A stretch of 64,000 bases of DNA from Siphonodentalium dalli (Eukaryota; Mollusca; Scaphopoda; Gadilida; Siphonodentaliidae). Shown here one piece after another: positions 2,872 to 56,200 of this stretch (its first letter is position 1; each line of letters begins with the position of its first letter). The notes under the pieces were generated by a model. It was not told the origin of the DNA, searched no databases, and was given only the letters and a program-made list of their open reading frames with translations. The position numbers were made by a program, and so were the translations under genes. Location of the stretch: assembly GCA_032622095.1 (NCBI GenBank), contig CP136066.1:63456609-63520608 (forward strand). The letters run 5' to 3'.

Positions 2872-4600
2872 CTAGCCGATGAGCACGACGTTGTCCGGGC
2901 TATTCAAAAACCAAATATCAGGTCGATAGCTCCACCCGTTTCCGAGATATGGTCTGGGCATGCGCGAAGCTGACGTCGCACGGGCTCGGCGACCCGATAT
3001 AATTCGTATCCGGGGCAAGATACATTCACATAGCAAATTTCAAGTCGATAGCTTCACCCGTTTCCGAGATCTCGTCTGCGCATGCGCGAAGTGGGCGCCG
3101 CACGGGCTCGAAAATACGACAACGTCCACCGCCTGGTCAAACTACACACACGTACCAAGTTTCGTCCCGATCGGTCGAGAATCGTAGATTTGTATAAATG
3201 ACAAACAAACATACATACAGACAGACAGACAGACAAACAGAGGTCTTCAAAATATATATGAGATAGCCGATGAGCCCGACGTTGTCCGGGCTATTCAAAA
3301 ACCAAATTTCAAGTCCGGGCTATTCAAAAACCAAATTTCAAGTCGATAGCTCCTAGCCGATGAGCCCGACGTTGTCCGGGCTATTCAAAAACCAAATTTC
3401 AAGTCGATAGCTCCACCCGTTTCCGAGATCTCGTCTGCGCATGCGCGAAGCTGGCGTCGCACGGGCTCGGCGACTCGATAAAATTCGTATCCGGGGCAAG
3501 ATACATTCACATACCAAATTTCAAGTCGATAGCTCCACCCGTTTCCGAGATCTCGTCTGCGCATGCGCGAAGCTGGCGTCGCACGGGCTCGGCGACCCGA
3601 TAAAATTCGTATCCGGGGCAAGATACATTCACATACCAAATTTCAAGTCGATAGCTCCACCCGTTTCCGAGATCTAGTCTGCGCATGCGCGAAGCTGGCG
3701 TCGCACGGGCTCGGAGACCCGATAAAATTCGTATCCGGGGCAAGATACATTCACATACCAAATTTCAAGTCGATAGCTCCACCCGTTTCCGAGATTTCGT
3801 CTGCGCATGCGCGAAGCTGGCGTCGCACGGGCTCAGCGACCCGATAAAATTCGTATTCGGGGCAAGATACATTCACATAGCAAATTTCAAGTCGATAGCT
3901 CCACCCGTTTCCGAGATCTCGTCTGCGCATGCGCTGCATGGGCATCGCACGGGTTCGCCAATACGACAATGACCACCGCCTGGTCAAACTACACCCATGT
4001 ACCAAGTTTCGTCCCGATCGGTCGAGAATCGTAGATTTGTATTAATGACAAACAAACATACATACATACAGACAGACAAACAGAGGTCTTCAAAATATAT
4101 ATAAGACTAGCAGGTTAGCCCGCCACCGGCGGCTTGTCCGAAACATGACATTTTTATATATATTTTTTAGCTCCACGCGTTTCAATAAGAACAATTTGTA
4201 CCCGGTAGCTCCACCAGTTTCCGAGATCTGGTCTGCACATGAAAATTTGTACCCGGCGCAAGATACATTCACATGCCAAATTTCAAGTCGATAGCTCCAC
4301 CCGTTTCCGAGATCTCGTCTGCGCATGCGCTGCACGGGCGTCGCACGGGCTTGGCGACCCGATAAAATTTGTACCCGGCGCAAGATACATTCACATAGCA
4401 AATTTCAAGTCGATAGCTCCACCCGTTTCCGAGATCTCGTCTGCGCATGCGCTGCACGGGAGTCGCACGGACTCGCCAATACGACAACGACCACCGCCTG
4501 GTCAAACTACACACACGTACCAAGTTTCGTCCCGATCGGTCGAGAATCGTAGATTTGTATGAAGTACAACACACACACAAACATAAATATATAAGAGAGA
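2872..4600 (-). mobile_element. Cluster of non-autonomous Helitron-like elements with 122-bp subrepeats
   Basis: On the minus strand each unit would end CTAG, with the + strand showing A|CTAG at 2871/2872 and again at 4106/4107. A GC-rich hairpin sits just inside the CTAG end (agcccgacgttgtccgggct at the first units, a different but still pairing gcccgccaccggcgg at 4119). The opposite end is a (caga)n/(caaa)n tract followed by 'caaaatatata..aga', so the minus strand would start TC. At 3265-4106 a 122-bp unit containing 'gagatctcgtctgcgcatgc' and 'ggcaagatacattcacata' is repeated at least four times with exact 122-bp spacing. No enzyme is encoded, and the short ORFs are by-products of the repeats. 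Class assignment is inference from termini and hairpin. Confidence 0.7.
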
Positions 4601-4786
4601 TATGTAAATTAGATAGATTGTATCAAAATATATAGGAGAGATATGTAAATGATCTACACACCATTACTGGTGTTTGTCAAAGTTTAGTGGGGTATATCAA
4701 TACTCATTCACGATCATATCATTGAGGTCCGGAGGGTGTGGGCTATCTCTCGAATACAAGGAGTTCTCAAAATATATAGAAGAGAT

Positions 4787-8048: not shown

Positions 8049-9639
8049 ACAGAAACTCAGTAATGAATTAGAGATACTGAGGTCCCTGATTATATCGAAT
8101 AAATTGGCGTTTTTTAAATATACGGTTATGGGCGCACCTACCTGATACGAACTTTTTCGCGACTGTTTCTTAAAATGCAAATCTGGGTGTGTGTTATAGT
8201 CGTCTCATATATGCAGCTCAAATTAGTGCACACAAAGAAATGATTAGACCATGATCCCCATCCATACAATTACGAAATGCAAACTATACAACGTTGTCCG
8301 AATTCGCGCGAACATATCTCTGTATATAAATGTGTCGTAAGTGTACCTTCTGCATGGGCGCTTATTCAGTAAGTCGGGACAGATTTTTGCACCGATGCGT
8401 TCTTGTCTGAAGCCAGATAATGTTAATATGTTGTCGTTTCTCGCGTCAAAAATGTAGACTCATTGGACTGTAGTGGTGTACTTTGTTCAGATAAACATGT
8501 CAGTTCAGTGTTGTCGTTATTTTAGAGCGTTTTACGTTCTGTTTTCTAAGCCGTAAAATTTATGTATAGAAAAACACAGAAGGCGAGATGATACGTTATC
8601 TTTTTCAGTACATTATCATTCATTCACCGAAACAAAATTGATATGCTACAACATTGGCTTCTTTAAAAGGCTATGTGTTCATCTGTAACCACGTGCAGAC
8701 TACATAATACAATAAATACCTACTTGGCCAAATTTTGAAATGAAGCTGGTAGCTATTATGGTAATGATTGCGTGATGTGCTTTCAGCGCAGGAACACCAT
8801 GGGGTCTAATTTCTCAATAGTACTCACATCATTTTTGTTATGCAGCTGCATGTTGATATGCAAAAATATGATATCTGATCCACGAATTCATGTACCGACG
8901 GAAAAGCCTTTTGATGACAAACCACGAAAATTGATGGCAACGAAATCAAAGCCAATATCGCAGATTTGTCAGCATATATCTTGTCTGGAAGACGCCAGTG
9001 CCAAAGGGCAAGATTATGGGCCAAAATTGCTGACTCAAATGGGACATTAAAATAACAGAACGATTAACTAATTGTGTATTGCTCGTCAAAAGCTGAAAAT
9101 ATTCAAATTTTTCGGCAGGGTACCTTCACAAATAGTTTTACCATACACAGCTGTCACTAATTCCGGCAACGCCTTGAATAATTTATTTACCTTCCAGAAA
9201 ACGTTGGCGGCTACAACTTGTTCTAACGAGGGGTATGGGTATTCGACCACTTTTCGCATTTGGCCGCTCCACTATAAAATATACAAATATATCTTCCGCT
9301 TCCCGTGCAACAGCCGAGCATTGTCATAACGTTTAGTGTCAATGTCCACTCTTTGGTAGATTTCTCACCCAACCTCTTCGGTCCCATGTACCAAACAACA
9401 AATGAGAGGTCTACATGTCGCTATCCGAGTATTCTGAGATGTTAACGTGACAAAATGACCAGATTTTATGGACATGTTACCTCTTAATGAACTCAGTGAT
9501 TTTGTGATGTTTTGAAAGTCGACACTTGCCATTCAATTGATTTTCATTCAAGCGTGCAGTCACTCAGCATATCATTAGTCATACTATATGTTGGTAACAC
9601 AGAAAAGCTTATCTTCCCAAAGTTTCATGGAATTACGAC
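8049..9639. other. Intronic sequence; one short signal-anchor-like ORF, not supported
   Basis: An open frame at 8772-9050 starts with a hydrophobic N-terminal stretch (NFSIVLTSFLLCSCMLIC) that could mimic a type II anchor. It lies between exons for the C-terminal catalytic part of the GCNT-like gene and has no similarity I recognise, so I do not call it a gene. Confidence 0.4.
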
Positions 9640-10030
9640 TACCAACCGCTTGTCACTTTAAGCACATTTCACGACTACAAAGCATTTTGAAATATTTTCT
9701 CAGAGACAATATGTTGCCTGTTTTGGTAAATTAATGGGCCCAAAATATTGAGTTGCTGGTCACCAGTTACCACTGTAACCACATTTCACGGCTACAAGAA
9801 TATTTTGAAACACATTTTCTGATCGATAATTTATCGCTTTCGGTACAATAATGTCCCGAAAATATTGAGTTGCTCGTTTGCTGCCACTGTAACAACGTTT
9901 CGCGGATACAAAGTATTTTTGAAACATATTTTCTGAAAGAAAAATATTTTGCCTGTTTCGGTGATTTAATTTCCCGAAAAAATAATAAATGAGTTGCTCG
10001 TTTCTTGCCACTTTAATAACGTTTCTGTTA
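9640..10030. repeat. Three diverged tandem units of about 120 bp
   Basis: Each unit contains 'ttgccact..taa', 'catttcacg-ctacaa', 'tattttgaaacat/attttct' and 'cccgaaaatattgagttgct'. The copies are diverged by substitutions and small indels. This may be the core of the element whose flank (10070-10370) recurs at 20060-20315. Confidence 0.65.
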
Positions 10031-10069
10031 ACATATGGTTGAAGGGACTCGATCAGTGACGCTTCAGTT

Positions 10070-10370
10070 TTCAGAATCGAGTAACTGCCCAAAAATAATG
10101 CTAACCACAGTCAACTATACAGTATAACATTGCCCGAAACCTGCTATTTTTTACACAAAAAAGCCACTTGATTTTAGAGTTATCCATCTTAATCCGCAAT
10201 TTGGTTCGCACTTAAAATTGTCGGTGGTGAAAAATAATAGATTTCAAACATCGATATCTGATCACTCTGAGCTTTGATGGGTGGGTTCTTCAACTTGAAT
10301 CAAATATGTTTTAACACCGAAGGCAAGGAAATAGTAATTTGCGAGCGTTGATTCGGATTAAGCATATTTG
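10070..10370 (+). repeat. Dispersed repeat, copy 1 (copy 2 at 20060-20315)
   Basis: Shared blocks with 20060-20315 in the same orientation include 'cagaatcgagtaactgccca', 'aatgctaacca', 'caaatatgttt', 'aaggcaaggaaatagtaat' and 'ttcggatta'. No coding capacity or defined ends. Confidence 0.6.
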
Positions 10371-10813
10371 AGCTAAATGTATTCGTCCCTTGACGTCAGA
10401 CGTCAGACTTGAGCCAACCAAAGATGTCGCAATCTGGGTCTGGATAATGCTGACGTAAAATATTGAAATACTGTCATTTTGTTCGAGAATATATACCGTA
10501 TGCGTGACTGTCATAGGTTGGGACATTTAAATAACCGCAGAATAAAATACGTCGTCGTAAATTACGTGCACGCATTGAATATTGTGCAGAGGCAGAAACG
10601 TTTAATACAGATCGAAGAGCGGCATAAAGTGATGGAGGAGTGGTGAAAAACCTCCTCATGTAATAACTCCGACATTCAAAGAGTTCAGTCCATACTACTC
10701 TATTTATTTACACCATCGAAGGCGTAGCTGCCTGTTCTAGATTGGCATAAAACAACATAACGAACTCAAACTTGTTATATTTATATATCTATACTTTTTA
10801 TATTTATACTATA
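10371..10813. other. Intronic sequence without recognised features
   Basis: Nothing recognisable apart from two adjacent gacgtcag words at about 10391-10405. Confidence 0.5.
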
Positions 10814-11563
10814 CTAGAAGGTGACCCGACTTCGTCCGGGCTATTCAAAAACCAAATTTCAAGTCGATTGGTCCACCCGTTTCCTAGATCTGGTCTGCGC
10901 ATGCGCGAAGCTGGTGTCGCACGTGCTCGGCGACCCGATAAAATTCGTATCCGGGGCAAGATACATTCACATACCAAATTTCAAGTCGATAGCTACACCC
11001 GTTTCCGAGATATATAGCCCAATGTCATTTGCGGATACCTCGGCCGGTGATGAGTTAACGCGACACAGTCAAATTCATCGGCAGGGTGAGAGTTAACGTA
11101 ATCTAACTTTATGACCTCTGACGACGTCATAGAAATTACGCATTGATTTTATCCCGATAAAAGCATCGTACCACTTGTACCTAATAATTGAGGCAGATAA
11201 CTAAAACGGATACATACATATTATATATCGTTGGAAAGATGAAGCCACACAGATTCTAACCGTGCAAATTATATGACTGGCAATTTATTATTCGCGCTAT
11301 ATCGAATCGATTTGTGAGCACCGAACTGAAATATATTAGCGCAAAAACGGCGTAAAAATAGATTTGACCTCCGCACGTGAAAAGTTGACCTCGCACGGAC
11401 AAATAAATATGCCTATGTTCGTCTCCGGCCGAAAACACATCCAAATACCAAATTTCATCGGAATTGGCTTAGTCGTTTTGGAGTCCATCGATTTCAAACA
11501 CACAAACAAACACACAAACTTACAAACAAACACATACACAGATCTTTCAAAATATATAATAGA
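10814..11563 (-). mobile_element. Non-autonomous Helitron-like unit 1 of tandem array
   Basis: The unit is 750 bp. The + strand shows A|CTAGAAGGTGACCCGACTTC at the left, which on the minus strand is a CTAG|T 3' end preceded by a hairpin formed by cccgacttcgtccggg. The right end is 'caaaatatataataga', giving a minus-strand 5' TC start, preceded by a (cacaaa)n microsatellite. Inside is one copy of the 122-bp subrepeat seen at 2872-4600, then a longer unique core. Canonical Helitrons start TC, end CTRR with a nearby hairpin, and insert between A and T without target duplication, which fits the outer flanks (A at 10813, T at 13927). Confidence 0.72.
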
Positions 11564-12309
11564 CTAGAAGGTGACCCGACTTCGTCCGGGCTATTCAAAA
11601 ACCAAATTTCAAGTCGATTGCTACACCCGTTTCCTAGATCTGGTCTGCGCATGCGCGAAGCTGGTGTCGCACGTGCTCGGCGACCCGATAAAATTCGTAT
11701 CCGGGGCAAGATACATTCACATACCAAATTTCAAGTCGATAGCTACACCCGTTTCCGAGATATATAGCCCAATGTCATTTGCGGATACCTCGGCCGGTGA
11801 TGAGTTAACGCGACACAGTCAAATGCATCGGCAGGGTGAGAGTTAACGTAATCTAACTTTATGACCTCTGACGACGTCATAGAAATTACGCATTGATTTT
11901 ATCCTGATAAAAGCATCGTACCACTTGTACCTAATAATTGAGGCAGATAACTAAAACGGATACATACATATTATATATCGTTGGAAAGATGAAGCCACAC
12001 AGATTCTAGCCGTGCAAATTATATGACTGGCAATTTATTATTCGCGCTATATCGAATCGATTTGTGAGCACCGAACTGAAATATATTAGCGCAAAAACGG
12101 CGTAAAAATAGATTTGACCTCCGCACGTGAAACGTTGACCTCGCACGGACAAATAAATATGCCTATGTTCGTCTCCGGCCGAAAATACCCTAAAATACCA
12201 AATTTCATCGAAATTGGCTTAGTCGTTTTCGAGTCCATCGATTTCAAACACACACACACACAAACAAACACACAAACACATACACAGATCTTTCAAAATA
12301 TATAATAGA
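11564..12309 (-). mobile_element. Non-autonomous Helitron-like unit 2 of tandem array
   Basis: This 746-bp unit joins unit 1 exactly at TAGA|CTAG with no host base between. It is nearly identical to units 1 and 3, with substitutions mostly in the microsatellite. Confidence 0.72.
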
Positions 12310-13054
12310 CTAGAAGGTGACCCGACTTCGTCCGGGCTATTCAAAAACCAAATTTCAAGTCGATTGCTCCACCCGTTTCCTAGATCTGGTCTGCGCATGC
12401 GCGAAGCTGGTGTCGCACGTGCTCGGCGACCCGATAAAATTCGTATCCGGGGCAAGATACATTCACATACCAAATTTCAAGTCGATAGCTACACCCGTTT
12501 CCGAGATATATAGCCCAATGTCATTTGCGGATACCTCGGCCGGTGATGAGTTAACGCGACACAGTCAAATGCATCGGCAGGGTGAGAGTTAACGTAATCT
12601 AACTTTATGACCTCTGACGACGTCATAGAATTTACGCATTGATTTTATCCTGATAAAAGCATCGTACCACTTGTACCTAATAATTGAGGCAGATAACTAA
12701 AACGGATACATACATATTATATATCGTTGGAAAGATGAAGCCACACAGATTCTAACCGTGCAAATTATATGACTGGCAATTTATTATTCGCGCTATATCG
12801 TATCGATTTGTGAGCACCGAACTGAAATATATTAGCGCAAAACGGCGTAAAAACAGATTTGACCTCCGCACGTGAAAAGTTGACCTCGCACGGACAAATA
12901 AATATGCCTATGTTCGTCTCCGGCCGAAAATACCCTAAAATACCAAATTTCATCGAAATTGGCTTAGTCGTTTTCGAGTCCATCGATTTCAAACACACAC
13001 ACACACACACAAACAAACACACACACACACAGATCTTTCAAAATATATAATAGA
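12310..13054 (-). mobile_element. Non-autonomous Helitron-like unit 3 of tandem array
   Basis: This 745-bp unit has the same exact head-to-tail junctions (TAGA|CTAG) on both sides. It has one base fewer in 'gcaaaacggcg' and a longer (ca)n tract. Confidence 0.72.
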
Positions 13055-13926
13055 CTAGAAGGTGACCCGACTTCGTCCGGGCTATTAAAAAACCAAATTT
13101 CAAGTCGATTGCTCCACCCGTTTCCTAGATCTGGTCTGCGCATGCGCGAAGCTGGTGTCGCACGTGCTCGGCGACCCGATAAAATTCGTATCCGGGGCAA
13201 GATACATTCACATACCAAATTTAAAGTCGATAGCTACACCCGTTTCCGAGATCTCGTCTGCGCATGCGCGAAGCTGGCGTCGCGCGTGCTCGGCGACCCG
13301 ATAAAATTCGTATCCGGGGCAAGATACATTCACATACCAAATTTCAAGTCGATAGCTACACCCGTTTCCGAGATATATAGCCCAATGTCATTTGCGGATA
13401 CCTCGGCCGGTGATGAGTTAACGCGACACAGTCAAATGCATCGGCAGGGTGAGAGTTAACGTAATTTAACTTTATGACCTCTGACGACGTCATAGAAATT
13501 ACGCATTGATTTTATCCCGATAAAAGCATCGTACCACTTGTACCTAATAATTGAGGCAGATAACTAAAACGGATACATACATATTATATATCGTTGGAAA
13601 GATGAAGCCACACAGATTCTAACCGTGCAAATTATATGACTGGCAATTTATTATTCGCGCTATATCGAATCGATTTGTGAGCACCGAACTGAAATATATT
13701 AGCGCAAAAACGGCGTAAAAATAGATTTGACCTCCGCACGTGAAAAGTTGACCTCGCACGGACAAATAAATATGCCTATGTTCGTCTCCGGCCGAAAATA
13801 CCCTAAAATACCAAATTTCATCGAAATTGGCTTAGTCGTTTTCGAGTCCATCGATTTCAAACACACAAACAAACACACACACAAACAAACACATACACAC
13901 ACAGATCTTTCAAAATATATAATAGA
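13055..13926 (-). mobile_element. Non-autonomous Helitron-like unit 4, with an extra 122-bp subrepeat
   Basis: This 872-bp unit differs from its neighbours by one additional 122-bp subrepeat (about 13250-13371). The array ends at ATAATAGA|T, giving the expected T flank. The extra subrepeat shows that internal units expand independently of whole-element duplication. Confidence 0.72.
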
Positions 13927-14069
13927 TGATGAATGTCACACTCTGTGTTACTCTTTTGTATATATGCTTATGCTCAATTGTCTGCAAAGTTTGCATCTGT
14001 TAGCCATTAAAAAATTATCTATCTAAACTAATGCTGTTTTGAATTACGATCCAGCTTTTTTTGTTGTAG

Positions 14070-14296
14070 AAATGCTCAAATGAGATGGAATATGACGGGC
14101 GATCCTCCTCATGGCATAACTCCAATAAAGGGTGCCGTTCACATCGTCGCCAGCAGAGGATATATCAATTACCTTTTACACAACAAAACGGCGCTAGATC
14201 TCCTAGAATGGGTGAAAAATACATCAGTTCCTGATGAAACATATTTCTCTACGCTGAACCACAACCCACACCTCGAAGTTCCCGGATCTTACAAAG
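14070..14296 (+). CDS. GCNT-like glycosyltransferase, penultimate exon
   Basis: This 227-bp exon has a good acceptor (pyrimidine tract then TTGTAG|A at 14069/14070) and a GT donor at 14297. It encodes about 75 residues, starting NAQMRWNMTGDPPHGITPIK and continuing through GAVHIVASRGYINYLLHN and LLEWVKNTSVPDETYFSTL to HNPHLEVPGSYK. The 'G-x-x-x-x-x-x-SR-x-Y/F' stretch, the 'W-x-x-x-T-x-x-PDE-x-x-x-x-T/S-L' motif and the following 'VPG' are diagnostic of family GT14. The Glu of the P-D-E motif is the catalytic base in mouse C2GnT-L. Phases are 2 on entry and 1 on exit, and both agree with the flanking exons. No stop or frameshift is seen, so the gene looks functional. The exact acceptor sugar (core-2, core-4 or I-branching) cannot be told from this part. 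Confidence 0.93.
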
Positions 14297-15017
14297 GTTG
14301 GTATGAGGTAGTGAAGGTATGGTTCATTCGATATATAGTGAAGACTAATCACAGCGCTCTAGGTTGGACGTCAACGCATTGAGTATATGGGTAATCACCA
14401 GAAGTGGGACAACAAATTGAGATTGCTAGTTAATTTATGAGTCTTTAGCATTCCTCAAATATATCTCATGCAGGTTTCGGTACATGTTACTATGTCTTTA
14501 AATGCACAGAAAATGATTTTCGACAGATATCCCCCTTTTTTTGGCGCCAAATACACCGAAAATATCCCCGAGGCGGCAAAGTTCCAGGAAATACAATATG
14601 GCGTCTATCAACCCCATATCAATCCATATACCCCCTGTGGGTTTCAATGTGGGGGTCGGTGCCAATCAAGGTGAACCTAATATGCCATCATCTCCTGTCA
14701 GTAGATCTCCATTCTCATTGGTCAATCTAATAGGCCAGCATGATAAGGGTTGATTTGTTCTCATTGCGTGATATTCGAACCAGAAATTGTTTTTATATGT
14801 TGTTTTTAGACTAACAATAGCATATTTTATACTTTTTGTCAAAGTTTGGTCCGAAATGGCTATTAGTTTGAAATAAATATTCCAACTTTAGGGGTGTCAG
14901 AGGTTGGAAATCTCCAACAGTTTGAAAGCTTGAGCTACCATGTAGTTACAACTGGAACGTTTAAACCCAAGTGGGCGGTGCAAATGGATTGGTCTGGATC
15001 ACGGAATATTTCAAGGT

Positions 15018-15062: not shown

Positions 15063-15097
15063 TGATGGATTTATCTGAAATTTCCTTCTCCTTTCAG

Positions 15098-15402
15098 GTT
15101 CTTCGGATACAACGGAAGACGATTATTCTCTGAAGCCTTTTGTCGCTAGATATAAACTATGGAGGCCTGGTTGTGGGGGAAAATATGTTCACGATGTATG
15201 CGTCAATGGCATCACTGATTTGCCCAAACTATACACGTCGAAAAAGCTGTTTGTGAATAAACTCTATTATGACTTCCAGCACTATTCATACGATTGTCTG
15301 GAAGAATGGAATTTCAATCGGAGTAGAGATTATTACAGTGGGACTTTGTTCTTCGATGATTCTTACTACAGAAACTTGGACTTCGTAAAAAATAAATTTT
15401 AG
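15098..15402 (+). CDS. GCNT-like glycosyltransferase, last exon with stop
   Basis: After the acceptor CTCCTTTCAG|GT at 15097/15098 the frame runs 101 codons to TAG at 15400-15402. It reads GSSDTTEDDYSLKPFVARYK, then LWRPGCGGKYVHDVCVNGIT, DLPKL and LFVNKL, and ends YRNLDFVKNKF. The 'C-G-G-K/x-Y-V-x-x-V-C-x-x-G-x-x-D-L' block with its two cysteines, the 'LFVNK' block and a late Cys (YDCLEEW) are the standard C-terminal hallmarks of core-2 GlcNAc-transferases, whose cysteines form disulfides in the Golgi lumen. The last base of the previous exon (G) joins GT to make Gly. The three visible exons sum to 195 residues, roughly the C-terminal 45% of a typical 400-450-residue enzyme. An AATAAA overlaps the stop region; I could not place a convincing poly(A) site downstream. 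Confidence 0.94.
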
Positions 15403-26410: not shown

Positions 26411-27705
26411 GGCTGTGTTTGAATTCCTATCGGCGGATTTCTATAAATATTTTTAACGGTAACCTTTTGCATGTTGCAAGTTAAATCTTTTATCAATTCG
26501 TGGATACCAAATTTATTACGATTGGACTTCGGGAACTTAACGTATTAATTGAAATAATCTCGAGGGGTATAAACCCAAATAATCCCACTATATAGAGATA
26601 TTTTGGAAGACAGTTTATTGTCGGAGTTTTCATATTAATCGATATAAACCCACACTAGAAATATATTGGTCGAAAGTTTGGCTGTGTTTGAATGTCTGTT
26701 GTCGGATTTCTGCAAATAGTTTTAACGGCAACCGTTTATTTTTTATTCCTATAACTAATTTTATCGGCAACCTTCTGCTTGTTGCAAGTTCACTAGTCTT
26801 TTACTAATTCGTCGATACCAAATGTATTACCATTGGAGTGATTGGACGTCAGGAACATGACGTACTAATTGAAATAATCTCGAGGGGTATAAACTCCAAA
26901 TAACCCCACTAGTTTGAGATATTTTGGAAGACAGTTTATTGTCGGAGTTTATCATTGCGCACTATATGACGGGCTGCGTTTAGGTGACTTTTGTGGGTTT
27001 TCTATAAATATTTTAGCGACAAATTTGTGCATGTTGCAAGTTCAGTCACTGGCCGATTCATGGGTATGAAATTTATTACGATCGGACATCGATGGGTATT
27101 AACCCCAAATAACCCCACTATAGAGATATTTTGGAAGACATTTTATTGTCGGAGTTTATCATTGCGCACTATATGACGGGCTGTGTTTGGGTGACTTTTG
27201 TGGGTTTTCTATAAATATTTTAGCGACAAATTTGTGCATGTTGCAAATTCAGTCACTGGCCGATTCATGCGTATGAAATTTATTACGATCGGACATCGAT
27301 GGGTATTAACCCCAAATAACCCCACTATAGAGATATTTTGGAAGACAGTTTATTGTCGGAGTTTATCATTGCGCACTATATGACGGGCTGTGTTTAGGTG
27401 ACTTTTGTGGGTTTTCTATAAATATTTTAGCGACAAATTTGTGCATGTTGCAAGTTCAGTCACTGGCCGATTCATGGGTATGAAATTTATTACGATCAGA
27501 CATCGATGGGTATAAACCCCAAATAACCCCACTATAGAGATATTTTGGAAGACATTTTATTGTCGGAGTTTATCATTGCGCACTATATGACGGGCTGCGT
27601 TTAGGTGACTTTTCTATAAATATTTTAGCGACAAATGTTTGCATGTTGCATGTTCAGTCTCTGGCCAATTTATGGGTATCAATTTTATTACGATCGGACA
27701 TCTGG
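26411..27705. repeat. Satellite-like tandem array, 207-bp unit
   Basis: Units beginning gggctg[c/t]gttt start at 26971, 27178, 27385 and 27592, exactly 207 bp apart. They contain 'ttgtgcatgttgcaagttca', 'accccaaataaccccactat' and 'attgtcggagtttatcattg'. Two more diverged copies with longer spacing start at about 26411 and 26680. The two nearly identical 61-codon open frames at 26991 and 27198 simply reflect the repeat. Confidence 0.9.
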
Positions 27706-39713: not shown

Positions 39714-40357
39714 CTAGCAGGTGGACCCGACTTCGTCCGGGCTGTTTGCCCTCTGCTTTTTGGCGAATTGCGCGATTTGACCTTGAATTGTCCATTTTGA
39801 AGGTCAAGGTCAGGTGGGGTCACGATTTGACCCGTCCAAAACACTGCCCGGACAAAAGTACCCGACAAAAGTACCCGTCGAAATCCATCCGGTTTTACCC
39901 GATTTGACCTCGAATTCATCGTTTTGAAGGTCAAGGTCAGGTCGGTCTGACGATTTGACCCGTTCAAAACACTCAGTGGACAAAAGTTACCCCACGTATC
40001 AAATTGTCGTCGAAATCCCATCAAAATTCGCGATTCGACCTTGAATTGACCCGATTTCAAGGTCAAGGTCACGTCGCATGGGCAAACGAATAGGTTACGA
40101 CACTCCCCATACGAAAGAGTCCCCAGACACTAATTGTCATCGAAATCCCGTGACACTCGGGCGTTCGACCTTGAAATGACCCGATTTCAAGGTCATGGTC
40201 ACGTCGCACGGGCAAATTAACAGGCCCATGTCACTCCCCGGCCGAAAGTACCCCCACGTACCAAGTTTCATCGAAATCGGCTAGGCCGTTTTCGAGTCCA
40301 TCGCGAACACACACACACAGACAGACAGACAGATTTCCCAAAATATATAATAGAAGA
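39714..40357 (-). mobile_element. Non-autonomous Helitron-like element
   Basis: The + strand shows A|CTAGCAGGTGGACCCGACTT with the gacccgacttcgtccgggct hairpin, and ends (caga)n, 'ccaaaatatataatagaaga' then T. On the minus strand this is TC...hairpin...CTAG|T. Inside are repeated blocks around 'ttgaaggtcaaggtca' and 'gatttgacccgtccaaaaca', about 120 bp apart. No enzyme is encoded. Confidence 0.7.
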
Positions 40358-46582: not shown

Positions 46583-48059
46583 ATGGGGCCACAGTCGAAA
46601 ATAAATTTCCGCAAATATCTCTTCATTAAGACTTACTATCTCTTAATTAAGACTTTATATCTCTTAATTAAGACTTACGTATCTCTTAGCTAGTCTTAAT
46701 TAAGACTTACTTATCTATTAATTAAGACTTACGTATATCTTAATTAGTCATTCCGTAGCACTTAATTAAGACTTACATATATCTTAATTAAGACTTACTT
46801 ATCTCCTAATAAAGAATTACGTATATCTTAATTAAAACTGTGGCCCCAATAAATCTAAATATTCGCCTGACACCCCACCCCGATCATCCAAAATGCCGCC
46901 GTCCAGAGGAGTTCATTTGGGATCGGTGGTGTGTGTGGCTGTACAGCCGTTGACCGATATAGGTCAAACAAAGGGTGTTCTATGGTGGCCCATAAGACAC
47001 TCTTTCCACGCACCCCATATATAAAACACCGTTAAAAATGGCAGCCGCCCAGAGGTGTTCCAATATGGCACCCATCGCCCGTTGTCCGATTTAGGTCAGA
47101 GTTTTGTAAGGTGGGATCGGGTTGGGATGTGTAGGCTTCTGGAAAAGGTATCATGGGGGTCTACCATACAACAGCCTTTGTTTGACCTAAATCGGTCTAG
47201 GGTCCGAGAAATGTCATGTGTGCCCTATTTGAACACCTCTGGGCGGCGACCATTTTGGATCGGGGTGGGATGTGTGGGATGTCTGAAAGATTGTCTTGTG
47301 GGCCATCATACAACACTCTTTGTTGGATCTAAATCGGTCTAATGACCGCAAAATGGCATGGGCGCCCTATTTGAACCTCTCTGGACGGCGACCATTTTGG
47401 ATCGGGGTGGGTGTATGGAAAAAGTGCCTTGATGTGTGGGGTGAATATTTAGATTGACTTGTGGGCACCCACAACACCATCTGTTTGACATTTGTTAAGT
47501 CTTAATTAAGAGATAAGTATGTCTTAAAGTGATGTGAAACAGTCCACTGGGTGACCAAATAGAAATGGAGAATAATCTGGCTCAAAGTAGTTATTTTTAC
47601 GAATATTAATCCAAATTTACAGCACATACATCGTCATGTTTATATATTAATTCAATGCAATGACTATCGATGGTGAAATTATTTGCGTTAGTTTATCGCC
47701 AATGTTGCGTCCCGAATATAGATGTAAATATTTACAATTAAGCGTAGTTCAGACGGTGATATCTATGGAATGGTATGGTGGATTTCTTTGATACTTTCGG
47801 CAATGTTAGTAGAATGCTACATTCCCACAGTTGGCATAGCGCATGAGTACTAACTTATCAGTTTCACCATAAGTAAGTCTTAATTCAAAGATACGTAAGG
47901 CTTAATTAAGAGATAAGTAAGTCTCAATTAAGAGATAGTAAGACTTAATTAAGAGATACGTAAGTCTTAATTAAGAGATAAGTAAGTCTCAATTAAGAGA
48001 TAGCAAGACTTAATTAAGAGATAAGTAAATCTTAATTAAGAGATAGTCTTAAACAGTCT
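46583..48059. mobile_element. Foldback element built from 'cttaattaagac' tandem arrays
   Basis: A left array (about 46615-46840, roughly ten copies of a 22-24 bp unit like aagacttacgtatctcttaatt) lies between inverted words tggggccacagt (46582) and actgtggcccca (46838). A right array (47872-48058) holds about nine copies in opposite orientation (aattaagagata.gtaagtctt). One more right-type unit is at 47497-47528. Between them, 46852-46910 is inverted at 47385-47455, and 'gacctaaatcggtcta'-type blocks repeat at about 150-165 bp. No ORF of substance. Confidence 0.8.
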
Positions 48060-53248: not shown

Positions 53249-56200
53249 TCTATATCTATATTTGCGAATGTCTGTCTGTATGTCTGTCTGTCTGTCTGTC
53301 TGTGTTCTATAGAAATTCACAGGGGACCATCTAGATGATGCCAAAGGGGTCTACTAGGAGTAGCTTTTTACGAGAAAGATAATGGTCGGGGTTAGAATTT
53401 TCTAAAGTGACGTCGTTGTTGTCAGGGGCAGAAAAGGGGGAGGGGCAGAAAAATAAATTGTCGCCGATTGCCACCAAACTTATATATAATAATCCCCATG
53501 ATATCAGGAATCTAATGGTGTGGTTTAAATATGGCAAAAGTCGCGCCGTTCGCGTCAGGGGTGCCCGGAAGGGGGAGGGGCAGAATTTTTTCTGTCGCCG
53601 ATTTCCACCAAACTTATATATAATCATCCCCATGATATGAAAAAACCCACGGTGTGGTTTAAAAGTGGCGTCGTTCGAGTCAGGGGTGCACGGAAGGGGA
53701 GAGGGGCACCAAAATTGAAAAACTAATTTTAGCGCCGATCTCCACCAAATTGATATATATTCTTCTTCATTATACAAGGAATCAAATTGTGCGCTTTAAC
53801 AACGCCAAATTGTTGTCTTTTTGTTGAGAGATTGGGAGGGGGTGGGCACTAAATTTGATAATAATTAGTTTAGTCGCCGATTGCCACCACACTTATACAA
53901 ATTCATCCCCATGGTATGAGGAGTCTAATGGTGTTGCTTATATATATCTGCCAAATGTGGCCTCATTCGAGTCAGGGTTGCATTGAAAGGGACAGGACAC
54001 CAAAATTGATGCACAATTTTTTTGCGCCAATTTCCACCAAATTGATACACGTTCTTATCCAAGATACGAGGAATCTAATCGTGTGATTTAAAGACGCCAT
54101 AGTGGCGCTGTTTGTTTGAGAGATGGGGGTGTGGATTGGCACCAAATTTGATAAAAACAATTGTTTAGTCGCCGATTATCACCAAACTTATAAACAATGA
54201 TCTCCATGATATCAGGAGTATAATCGTGTGGTTTAAGGATGTCATAATTTGGGCCATTCGAGTCAGTGATGTATAGAGATGAGAGGGACACAACAAATTA
54301 TATCTATATGTTTAGTGCCGATTTCCACCAGATTGATACATATTCTTCTCCGTGATACGAGGAATCTTATCGTGTCGTTTAGATACACCAAATTTGTGCC
54401 CTATGGGTGAGAGATATGGGGACCTTAAATTTGATACGAATTTGTATACTCGCCAATTTTCACCAATTTCATATATATGCATCTCTAATCTCTAATGAGT
54501 CTTAGTGTGTGCAGCCTGGGACTGAAATAGGGACGGGGGTCACCAAGACTGATACAAAATATTTTTAGTACTAATTACCATCAAATTCAGACACGTTCTT
54601 CTCAAATGATACAAGAAATAAAATCGTGCTGTCTGTCTGTCTGTCTTTCTGTCTGTCTGTGTGCGTTCTATATATAACTTTACGCGGTACAATCGAGATG
54701 GCACCAAGGCGTTCTAAGAGGGGTAACTGTTTACAAGGAAGATAACGGTGCGGGTAAAAATTTTCTAAAATGACGCTGTTGGTGTCAGGGGAAGAAAAGG
54801 GGGAGGTCGGCAAAATTAAAAATATATCGTGAAATAGTTTTGTCGCCGATTTCCACTAAACGAATACATAATCACCTTCGCAATATGGCGTTGTTCGAGT
54901 CAACGTTGCATCAACAATTGATTTAAAAAACTATTTCTAGCCCAGATTGCCACCAAATTGATATATTATTCTTCTCTATGATACGAGGAATATCATCGTG
55001 TGATTTAAAGACGTCATATTGTTGTCAGTTGGGTGAGAGATATGGGTCATAACTATTCTCAGAATTTGTTTAGTTGCTGAATACCACCAAACATATATAT
55101 AATCATCGCCAGTATATCATGCATCCATGACTGACAATGAGTCTAATGGGAATGGTTTAAATATGTCAAAAGAGGCAAACACTGGTACACATTTATTTGG
55201 CACCAATTTCCACCGAATTCATACACGTTTTTCTCTATTGATATACCATGAATTAAATCACATTTTGTGTCGTTTGCGTCGCGGATGGCGAGCGGATATG
55301 CACTATCATTGATAAGATTGCTATTCGCCTCTATCCACATATAAGTTATATACAGTCACCCAGGCCATCTCCATATCATTTTAAGTAGTTTTGGACGTTC
55401 ACATTTCTCAATCCCGACATATGGTTACCCACTTAAGTCACTTGAACAATTATATCTTCTTAACTGTCATATTTATATGGGAATAGCAATCAGGGCATTC
55501 ACAAAATGAGCTAGCAAAAAGAGATACATAGAAGAAGCATTAAACGTACATTTATCATTCTATTGAAGAGATACATATATTCGTGCAAACTGAGAGACCC
55601 CGAACCGTCAGAGGATTGCATATATATTATAACAAAATTGAGTCTGTTCCATTCAATACAGCTTCCACAAAAAAGTAACAATTTGTCAAGAGATATGGAA
55701 GGCCTGTTCAAAAATAGTGGTCACAGTGTGCAGTCAAATATGGTTTCTTCTGATATACAAGAAAACGTACAAAACGCATAAGACTATTCAGGATCCTCCC
55801 AATACTGCACATCTGACAAGTGTTTTGTAACAGACTCCTCGACTGACATAAACAACTCAAAATCTCGCTCTGTGCCTGGCACATGTAGCTAATATTTATG
55901 CGCATCAACATATCGTTTAAACTGAGAATATTTAGCCAATATATAGCACCATGAACAGAGGAGCACCTGGAAATTTCTGCATCTTCATGGAGATAGCCAG
56001 GTGTCCTCGAGAACTTAGTTCAACCCACTAAATTGATTGATACATCTCAATATTTAAAACCCAATTATCATCTTTTATCGAACTAATGTGTGCATGATGT
56101 TCATGTATCATATTATAACGTCTAATGTATACGCAGTTGTAAATAAATACATACTTCGTTATTGTTGGAACGGATTAATCGCGACAAACAGAATGACAAT

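Follow-up and report, generated by a model that had tools for sequence, protein, structure and literature searches.

The window analysed here, a stretch of 64,000 nucleotides from the scaphopod Siphonodentalium dalli (contig CP136066.1, positions 63,456,609 to 63,520,608 of the forward strand), contains four Helitron-like units standing head to tail with no other DNA between them. The question raised by this locus is how such a chain comes about: whether its units are copies of one template laid down at once, an array that was already assembled when it arrived, or separate elements joined at their ends. The units and their joints are listed below, with a slash marking each boundary.

10814-11563, minus strand: Helitron unit 1, 750 bp, last in element sense, its minus-strand CTAG end abutting host T.
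11560-11567, no strand assigned: exact joint TAGA/CTAG of units 1 and 2, within a 21-base joint found 4,123 times in the genome.
11564-12309, minus strand: Helitron unit 2, 746 bp.
12306-12313, no strand assigned: exact joint TAGA/CTAG of units 2 and 3, with the same 21-base joint.
12310-13054, minus strand: Helitron unit 3, 745 bp.
13051-13058, no strand assigned: exact joint TAGA/CTAG of units 3 and 4, with the same 21-base joint.
13055-13926, minus strand: Helitron unit 4, 872 bp, first in element sense, its extra length being one additional internal 122-bp repeat.

This partition, with A before the array and T after it, is that of the initial annotation, whose coordinates and flanks were confirmed. 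The start CTAGAAGGTGACCCGACTTCGTCCGGGC and the end CAAAATATATAATAGA are common to all four units, and the array is flanked by ...ACTATA ahead of unit 1 and TGATGA behind unit 4. Read on the minus strand, each of the four runs from TCTATTATATATTTTG to TCACCTTCTAG and lies between A and T (A/TC...CTAG/T). This layout, TCTATTATATATTTTG...CCCGGACGAAGTCGGGTCACCTTCTAG between A and T, is that of canonical Helitrons, and both the TC 5' end and the CTRR 3' end are present in every unit. The octamer TAGACTAG occurs three times in the window, always in the array, against a chance mean of 0.70; since 6 of 100 shuffles reach three or more, this count alone is weak evidence. Terminal inverted repeats were not found, none of the five inverted pairs of at least 14 bases in the region 10300-14500 connecting the ends of any unit. 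A CCCG...CGGG stem is predicted 7 bases before CTAG, and the calculated stability of this 3' hairpin is weak and no better than that of shuffles (z of -0.17, -0.31, and +0.26). A scan of positions 9000-15000 against Rfam gave nothing at gathering scores. Insertion between T and T, which we take to be a trait of Helentron/DINE (Helitron2) elements, is not seen here, the insertion being A-T. T-rich insertion sites are given for that group in the part of PMC4067079 consulted.

The 15-base end CTAGAAGGTGACCCG occurs 13,306 times in the 2.23-Gb genome, with A as the preceding base in 99.3% of cases (another base in 91), and the five-prime end TTTCAAAATATATAATAGA followed by A, G, or T occurs 1,734 times, the next base being T in 99 of the 100 listed. 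The window itself also holds a single diverged relative at 39714-40354, which starts with CTAGCAGGTGGACCCG, ends with AATAGA, and is followed by A instead of T. A profile search of the genome for Rep (PF14214) gave at least 151 matches (150 of 457 candidates scored). At C1:114.62 Mb lies an element of 8,809 bp whose termini are those of the short units and which matches PF14214, PF05970, and PF21530 (Rep and Pif1). It carries GLPHAH and YVCKYINK, with GKT in the second copy, motifs that we take to be those of Rep (HUH, two Tyr) and the Pif1 helicase. In the 8,809-bp copy, which was read at both ends, one stop separates the Rep and helicase parts; in the neighbouring long copy, of which the 5' end was fetched and the 3' end was not, the frame is open as far as read. 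These copies are themselves members of a chain, short (756)/short (856)/long (8,809)/short (857)/long, in which every joint is exact and a block of one short and one long element is repeated, at about 99.3% identity as far as read. The TC/CTAG ends, the A-T insertion, and the Rep/Pif1 element with the same ends bear out the identification as Helitrons made in the initial annotation, and support the classification of the array units as non-autonomous canonical Helitrons (Helitron1). Judged by its sequence, the 8.8-kb Rep/Pif1 element is a candidate for their autonomous partner.

Six further Rep loci (L052-L057) were picked from the PF14214 matches, their 5' regions being inspected. In L052 (C4:39.62 Mb), a relative of the 8,809-bp element is joined to different short units of 749 bp; L054 has exact joints of the array's family and only weak similarity to the 8,809-bp element. 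The other four (L053, L055, L056, and L057) show no joint with short units of the array's family, and the ends of L055, L056, and L057 resemble those of other families. No terminus was found in L058, a locus chosen for the 3' end of the L052 element.

The site occupied by the array can be reconstructed from its flanks, which are listed here together with the coding sequences that follow.

10771-10813, no strand assigned: left flank, ending ...TACTATA and belonging to a dispersed repeat about 140 bp long, from the flank alignment.
13927-14025, no strand assigned: right flank, the rest of that repeat, starting TGA/TGAATG, with three bases more than eight aligned empty copies.
14059-14285, plus strand: exon of a Core-2/I-branching beta-1,6-GlcNAc transferase-like gene (PF02485, E 2.7e-7), limits approximate.
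15079-15399, plus strand: probable further exon of the same glycosyltransferase gene, an open stretch with a weak match to PDB 2gak (E 0.0013), limits approximate.

Joined to each other, the two flanks form one continuous dispersed repeat that is present at no fewer than 38 other places at 94-97% identity (40 of 559 candidates scored). Eight empty copies were fetched and aligned; apart from small variants their sequence is TACTAT(A)TGAATG, whereas the array locus reads TACTATA, array, TGATGAATG. The comparison therefore places the whole 3.1 kb in a single A^T site without target duplication, with three extra bases beside unit 4. These bases are the TGA at 13927-13929, which is absent from all eight empty copies.

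The glycosyltransferase exon starts about 130 bp downstream of the array. The initial annotation had placed the array inside a gene intron, for which the downstream exon with its PF02485 match and the weak match at 15079-15399 speak; the latter stretch has no Pfam match above the cut-off. On the other side, Pfam recognised no glycosyltransferase exon, nor was any other coding exon recognised, among the few upstream open reading frames tested, so that an intronic position is no more than plausible. In a search for relatives of the two downstream exons, only those exons themselves matched.

The reading that we favour, and that we consider about evenly poised between right and wrong, is that these four non-autonomous canonical Helitrons, which share one A^T site beside glycosyltransferase exons, were chained by end-to-end joining at the termini, followed by local amplification of blocks; we infer both the joining chemistry and the order of events. 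The HUH Rep of the family would link two elements, one by its CTAG 3' end and the other by its TC 5' end, the insertion place most likely being the cognate 5' terminus of a resident element, which in the current model Rep would nick anyway to start transposition. Such joining would yield exact, head-to-tail, orientation-specific joints whatever the subfamily. Unequal recombination, and possibly the rolling-circle copying of circles with several units, would then amplify multi-unit blocks locally.

The main rival, an unlikely one, is a single insertion event, for which the copying of a mixed multi-unit array or circle located elsewhere would have run through the internal CTAG ends. The single A^T site and the lack of host DNA inside the array fit such an arrival, as do two insertions at C1:93.42 Mb, separated by 12 bp, that carry an identical two-unit block of 740 and 746 bp. 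Precise circles joining CTAG to TC are active donors of the bat Helitron, according to the part of PMC4778049 consulted, and they agree with the favoured joining at termini as well. No donor came to light among the places compared: in the best of 33 collinear four-unit stretches among the fetched loci, the least similar unit is 98.39% identical, and the best two other full-length places reach 97% (34 of 2,776 candidates scored). Similarly, among 44 mixed adjacent pairs, those less than 98% identical, a twin block of at least 99.5% identity was found in the same locus for 12 and at another fetched locus for none.

Several rolling-circle turns of one template, inserted at once and differing only by later changes, would be an improbable origin of this array. 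The four units were aligned pairwise, as the initial annotation had proposed, and are mutually 98.25-98.93% identical. They were then placed in a distance table of 144 units, a small, non-random fraction of the 13,306 ends. The table covers the best matches to the array (L005-L016), early listed joints on contig 1 that were hand-picked and not random (L017-L036), and singles with both ends listed (L037-L048); L049, units with inner starts or starts other than CTAG, and lengths outside 500-1,300 bp were omitted, and L050-L058 are not included. Identity was computed over aligned columns with gaps omitted, down to 398 columns in the most unlike pairs. Within these 144, every array unit is closer to some unit elsewhere than to its array neighbours: unit 1 to L030_1 (99.33%), unit 2 to L005_5 (99.19%), unit 3 to L008_2 on C7 (99.86%), and unit 4 to L012_4 (99.47%). 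Moreover, the units are split by variants that occur genome-wide. Unit 1 carries GAAAACACATCC and TTTTGGAGTCC; GAAAACACATCC is found in 50 of the 144 units, at 18 loci, and GAAAATACCCTA, the form in units 2-4, in 36 of them, at 17 loci. A second site divides the array differently, with ATCCT in units 2 and 3 (40 of 144) and ATCCC in units 1 and 4 (44 of 144). Because of these variants and of the closer relatives elsewhere, a single-template product is not supported, unless gene conversion imported the variants into copies of one template. The rolling-circle concatemer inserted once, as the initial annotation described it, is thus disfavoured as regards several turns of one template; insertion in one event survives as the unlikely arrival of a mixed donor array discussed above.

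The exact joints fit a single donor as well, and so do near-identical units in some arrays, for example the first three of L014. In 20 other arrays on contig 1, 17 of 34 adjacent pairs are at least 97% identical and 13 are below 90%; six of the arrays have all joints at or above 97%, and ten have a joint below 90%. Adjacent units are more alike than shuffled ones (mean 93.6 against an expected 89.7, with none of 5,000 shuffles reaching 93.6). This similarity above chance, together with the six uniformly similar arrays, indicates that single-template copying or homogenisation also acts. Single-linkage clustering at 90% puts all 144 units in one cluster, and mixing was therefore counted by pair identity or by clusters at 94-96%, which leave 14 or 15 of the 34 adjacent pairs mixed.

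Blind insertion between A and T, in either direction, is expected to yield head-to-head joints as often as head-to-tail ones. Independent ordinary insertions, each into an A-T made of a host A and the element's own T, are marginally more doubtful still as the source of the array, although the A-T site is recreated each time and the family occurs in TA-rich targets and also only a few bases away from the ends of other Helitrons. A genome search for further arrays with identical junctions, suggested in the initial annotation, found the 21-base joint AATAGACTAGAAGGTGACCCG 4,123 times, which corresponds to 31% of the 13,306 ends, and its reversed control not once. Exact head-to-head joints number zero in the genome, joints in which the 5' end is shortened or altered (slightly internal) 18, and joints with 1-30 intervening bases, mostly TA-rich, 45. 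These controls were counted with a longer prefix than the head-to-tail joints; as that prefix, TTTCAAAATATAT, is present in 66 of 103 joints of the fetched loci, about 2,600 exact joints is a fair figure to set against the 18 and the 45. One head-to-head pair, 2 bp apart, was seen at C1:111542001/111542021, and instability or loss of long palindromes could partly explain the zero. With such counts blind re-insertion is not the explanation, and independent insertion is largely overturned, unless the terminus itself dictates orientation and position, as in the favoured reading. The initial annotation had taken the exact junctions as an argument against four independent insertions. By itself an exact joint proves nothing, because the element begins with T and insertion between a host A and this T is also exact; it is the genome-wide counts that make blind insertion unlikely. 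The re-creation of the A-T site by a host A and the T of TC was pointed out by Du et al. 2008, who proposed independent insertion for one maize pair (PMC2267711, in the part consulted).

Joints of the array's family to other families, with units starting CTAGCC or CTAGCAGG, are also exact. A second Helitron chain, made of other families, lies in the window at 2872-4639 (plus-strand coordinates). It comprises CTAGCC-type units at 2872-3263 and 3264-4106, the latter without the first C, and a CTAGCAGG-type unit attached by an exact joint at 4106/4107, the far end of which is uncertain. Genome-wide, elements of the array's family have also frequently inserted at the TA-rich CTCAAAATATATAGTATAGA 5' end of another Helitron-like family, either right at that end or 4 bases inside it. 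In a tally by eye of the rows for CTCAAAATATATAGTATAGA ends, a remaining group of 18 consists mostly of variants that end in AGA/CTAG, which makes internal and end positions about equal there; some rows lie in tandem arrays and are thus non-independent.

That unequal crossing-over or gene conversion, acting alone, expanded a single dimer into the array is very improbable, although such processes have left clear traces. Blocks are repeated within chains (748-872-869 twice, 740-746 several times, and 746-734 twice), the 12 twin blocks found in the same locus likewise point to local amplification, and L025 and L026 share a right flank with different arrays. The locus L024 (C1:1625300-1631700) contains a 2,405-bp tandem duplication, 99.96% identical, that spans units from two Helitron families together with a little host sequence; since this duplication carries host flank, unequal recombination does act, with a possible further contribution to the amplification from rolling-circle copying of circles with several units. 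Dimer growth, however, explains neither the first joint nor the joints between different subfamilies or families, and it is insufficient for mixed dimers that lack a second copy of the block, as in L019, for whose junction no second copy was seen elsewhere (best other full-length match 93%; 40 of 4,367 candidates scored). Finally, an assembly artefact is scarcely credible: the copy number of near-identical units can be mis-assembled, but the units differ by 1.1-1.75%, and thousands of places share this joint, with flanks that differ among the fetched loci.

Tandem organisation of other kinds was also encountered. In L049 (C1:63517500-63527000), a 3,082-bp tandem array contains joined units of 590 and 730 bp, its period including other DNA. 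Unrelated tandem repeats occupy positions 46616-48045, 26880-27702, 53661-54415, and 47114-47418 of the window, as 21-22-bp units around CTTAATTAAG and as 207-bp, 292-bp, and 142-bp arrays.

Returning to end-to-end joining at the termini, we can tentatively extend it, at somewhat less than an even chance, to insertion addressed by the terminus itself. Rep may prefer the nick at a resident 5' end as the place for the next element, whatever the subfamily or family of that element, as long as its ends are compatible. Mixed chains, including those with autonomous copies, would then be a regular way of occupying the genome rather than the chance result of a failure to terminate.

Xiong et al. 2016 are said to have linked tandem Helitron insertions in plant centromeres to circular intermediates. 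In the part of PMC5148889 consulted, the units of the plant centromeric arrays are truncated, whereas the units described here have both ends and also lie beside gene exons. Head-to-tail Helitrons, including different ones side by side, are a known kind of arrangement, and head-to-tail junctions and tandem arrays are recorded for bat and plant genomes in the part of PMC5876387 seen. Helibat/Helraiser, a canonical Helitron of bats, resembles the present family in its TC...CTAG ends, HUH transposase, and, through the circles mentioned above (PMC4778049), precise junctions; the differences lie in the thousands of exact joints, the chains of mixed subfamilies and families, and the weak calculated 3' hairpin found here. 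In the maize r1 region, as presented in the consulted part of PMC2267711 (Du et al. 2008), two clearly different Helitrons also meet at an exact CTAG/TC joint, and both models are discussed; there it is one pair, whereas here the pattern is genome-wide, with orientation and position countable. PMC4067079 likewise reports tandem arrays in bat and silkworm and, for bat and maize, Helitrons that are only distantly related and yet sometimes immediate neighbours; the counts of joints by orientation and identity given here are absent from that account as far as it was consulted. For the fungus Metarhizium acridum, the accessible part of PMC5148889 describes three tandem copies and offers both serial insertion at the 5' end and rolling-circle replication, in a single case and for mostly non-canonical Helitron2 types.

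What is added here is the scale of the joints, the mixture of variants found in single chains, the presence of candidate autonomous copies in chains, and the counts that discriminate between explanations; at the level of titles and abstract openings, mixed-subfamily chains on such a scale, chained autonomous copies, and such counts were not found among the papers listed. The debate between read-through and consecutive insertion has relied on individual cases since 2007-2008 (PMC2267711 and PMC5148889, in the parts consulted). A single genome in which exact joints number more than 4,000, subfamilies are mixed, and an autonomous partner can be proposed makes the question countable, in that the orientation, position, and neighbour identity of Helitron joints can be tabulated. 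Beyond this, the Helitron chains suggest one route from transposons to tandem, satellite-like DNA.
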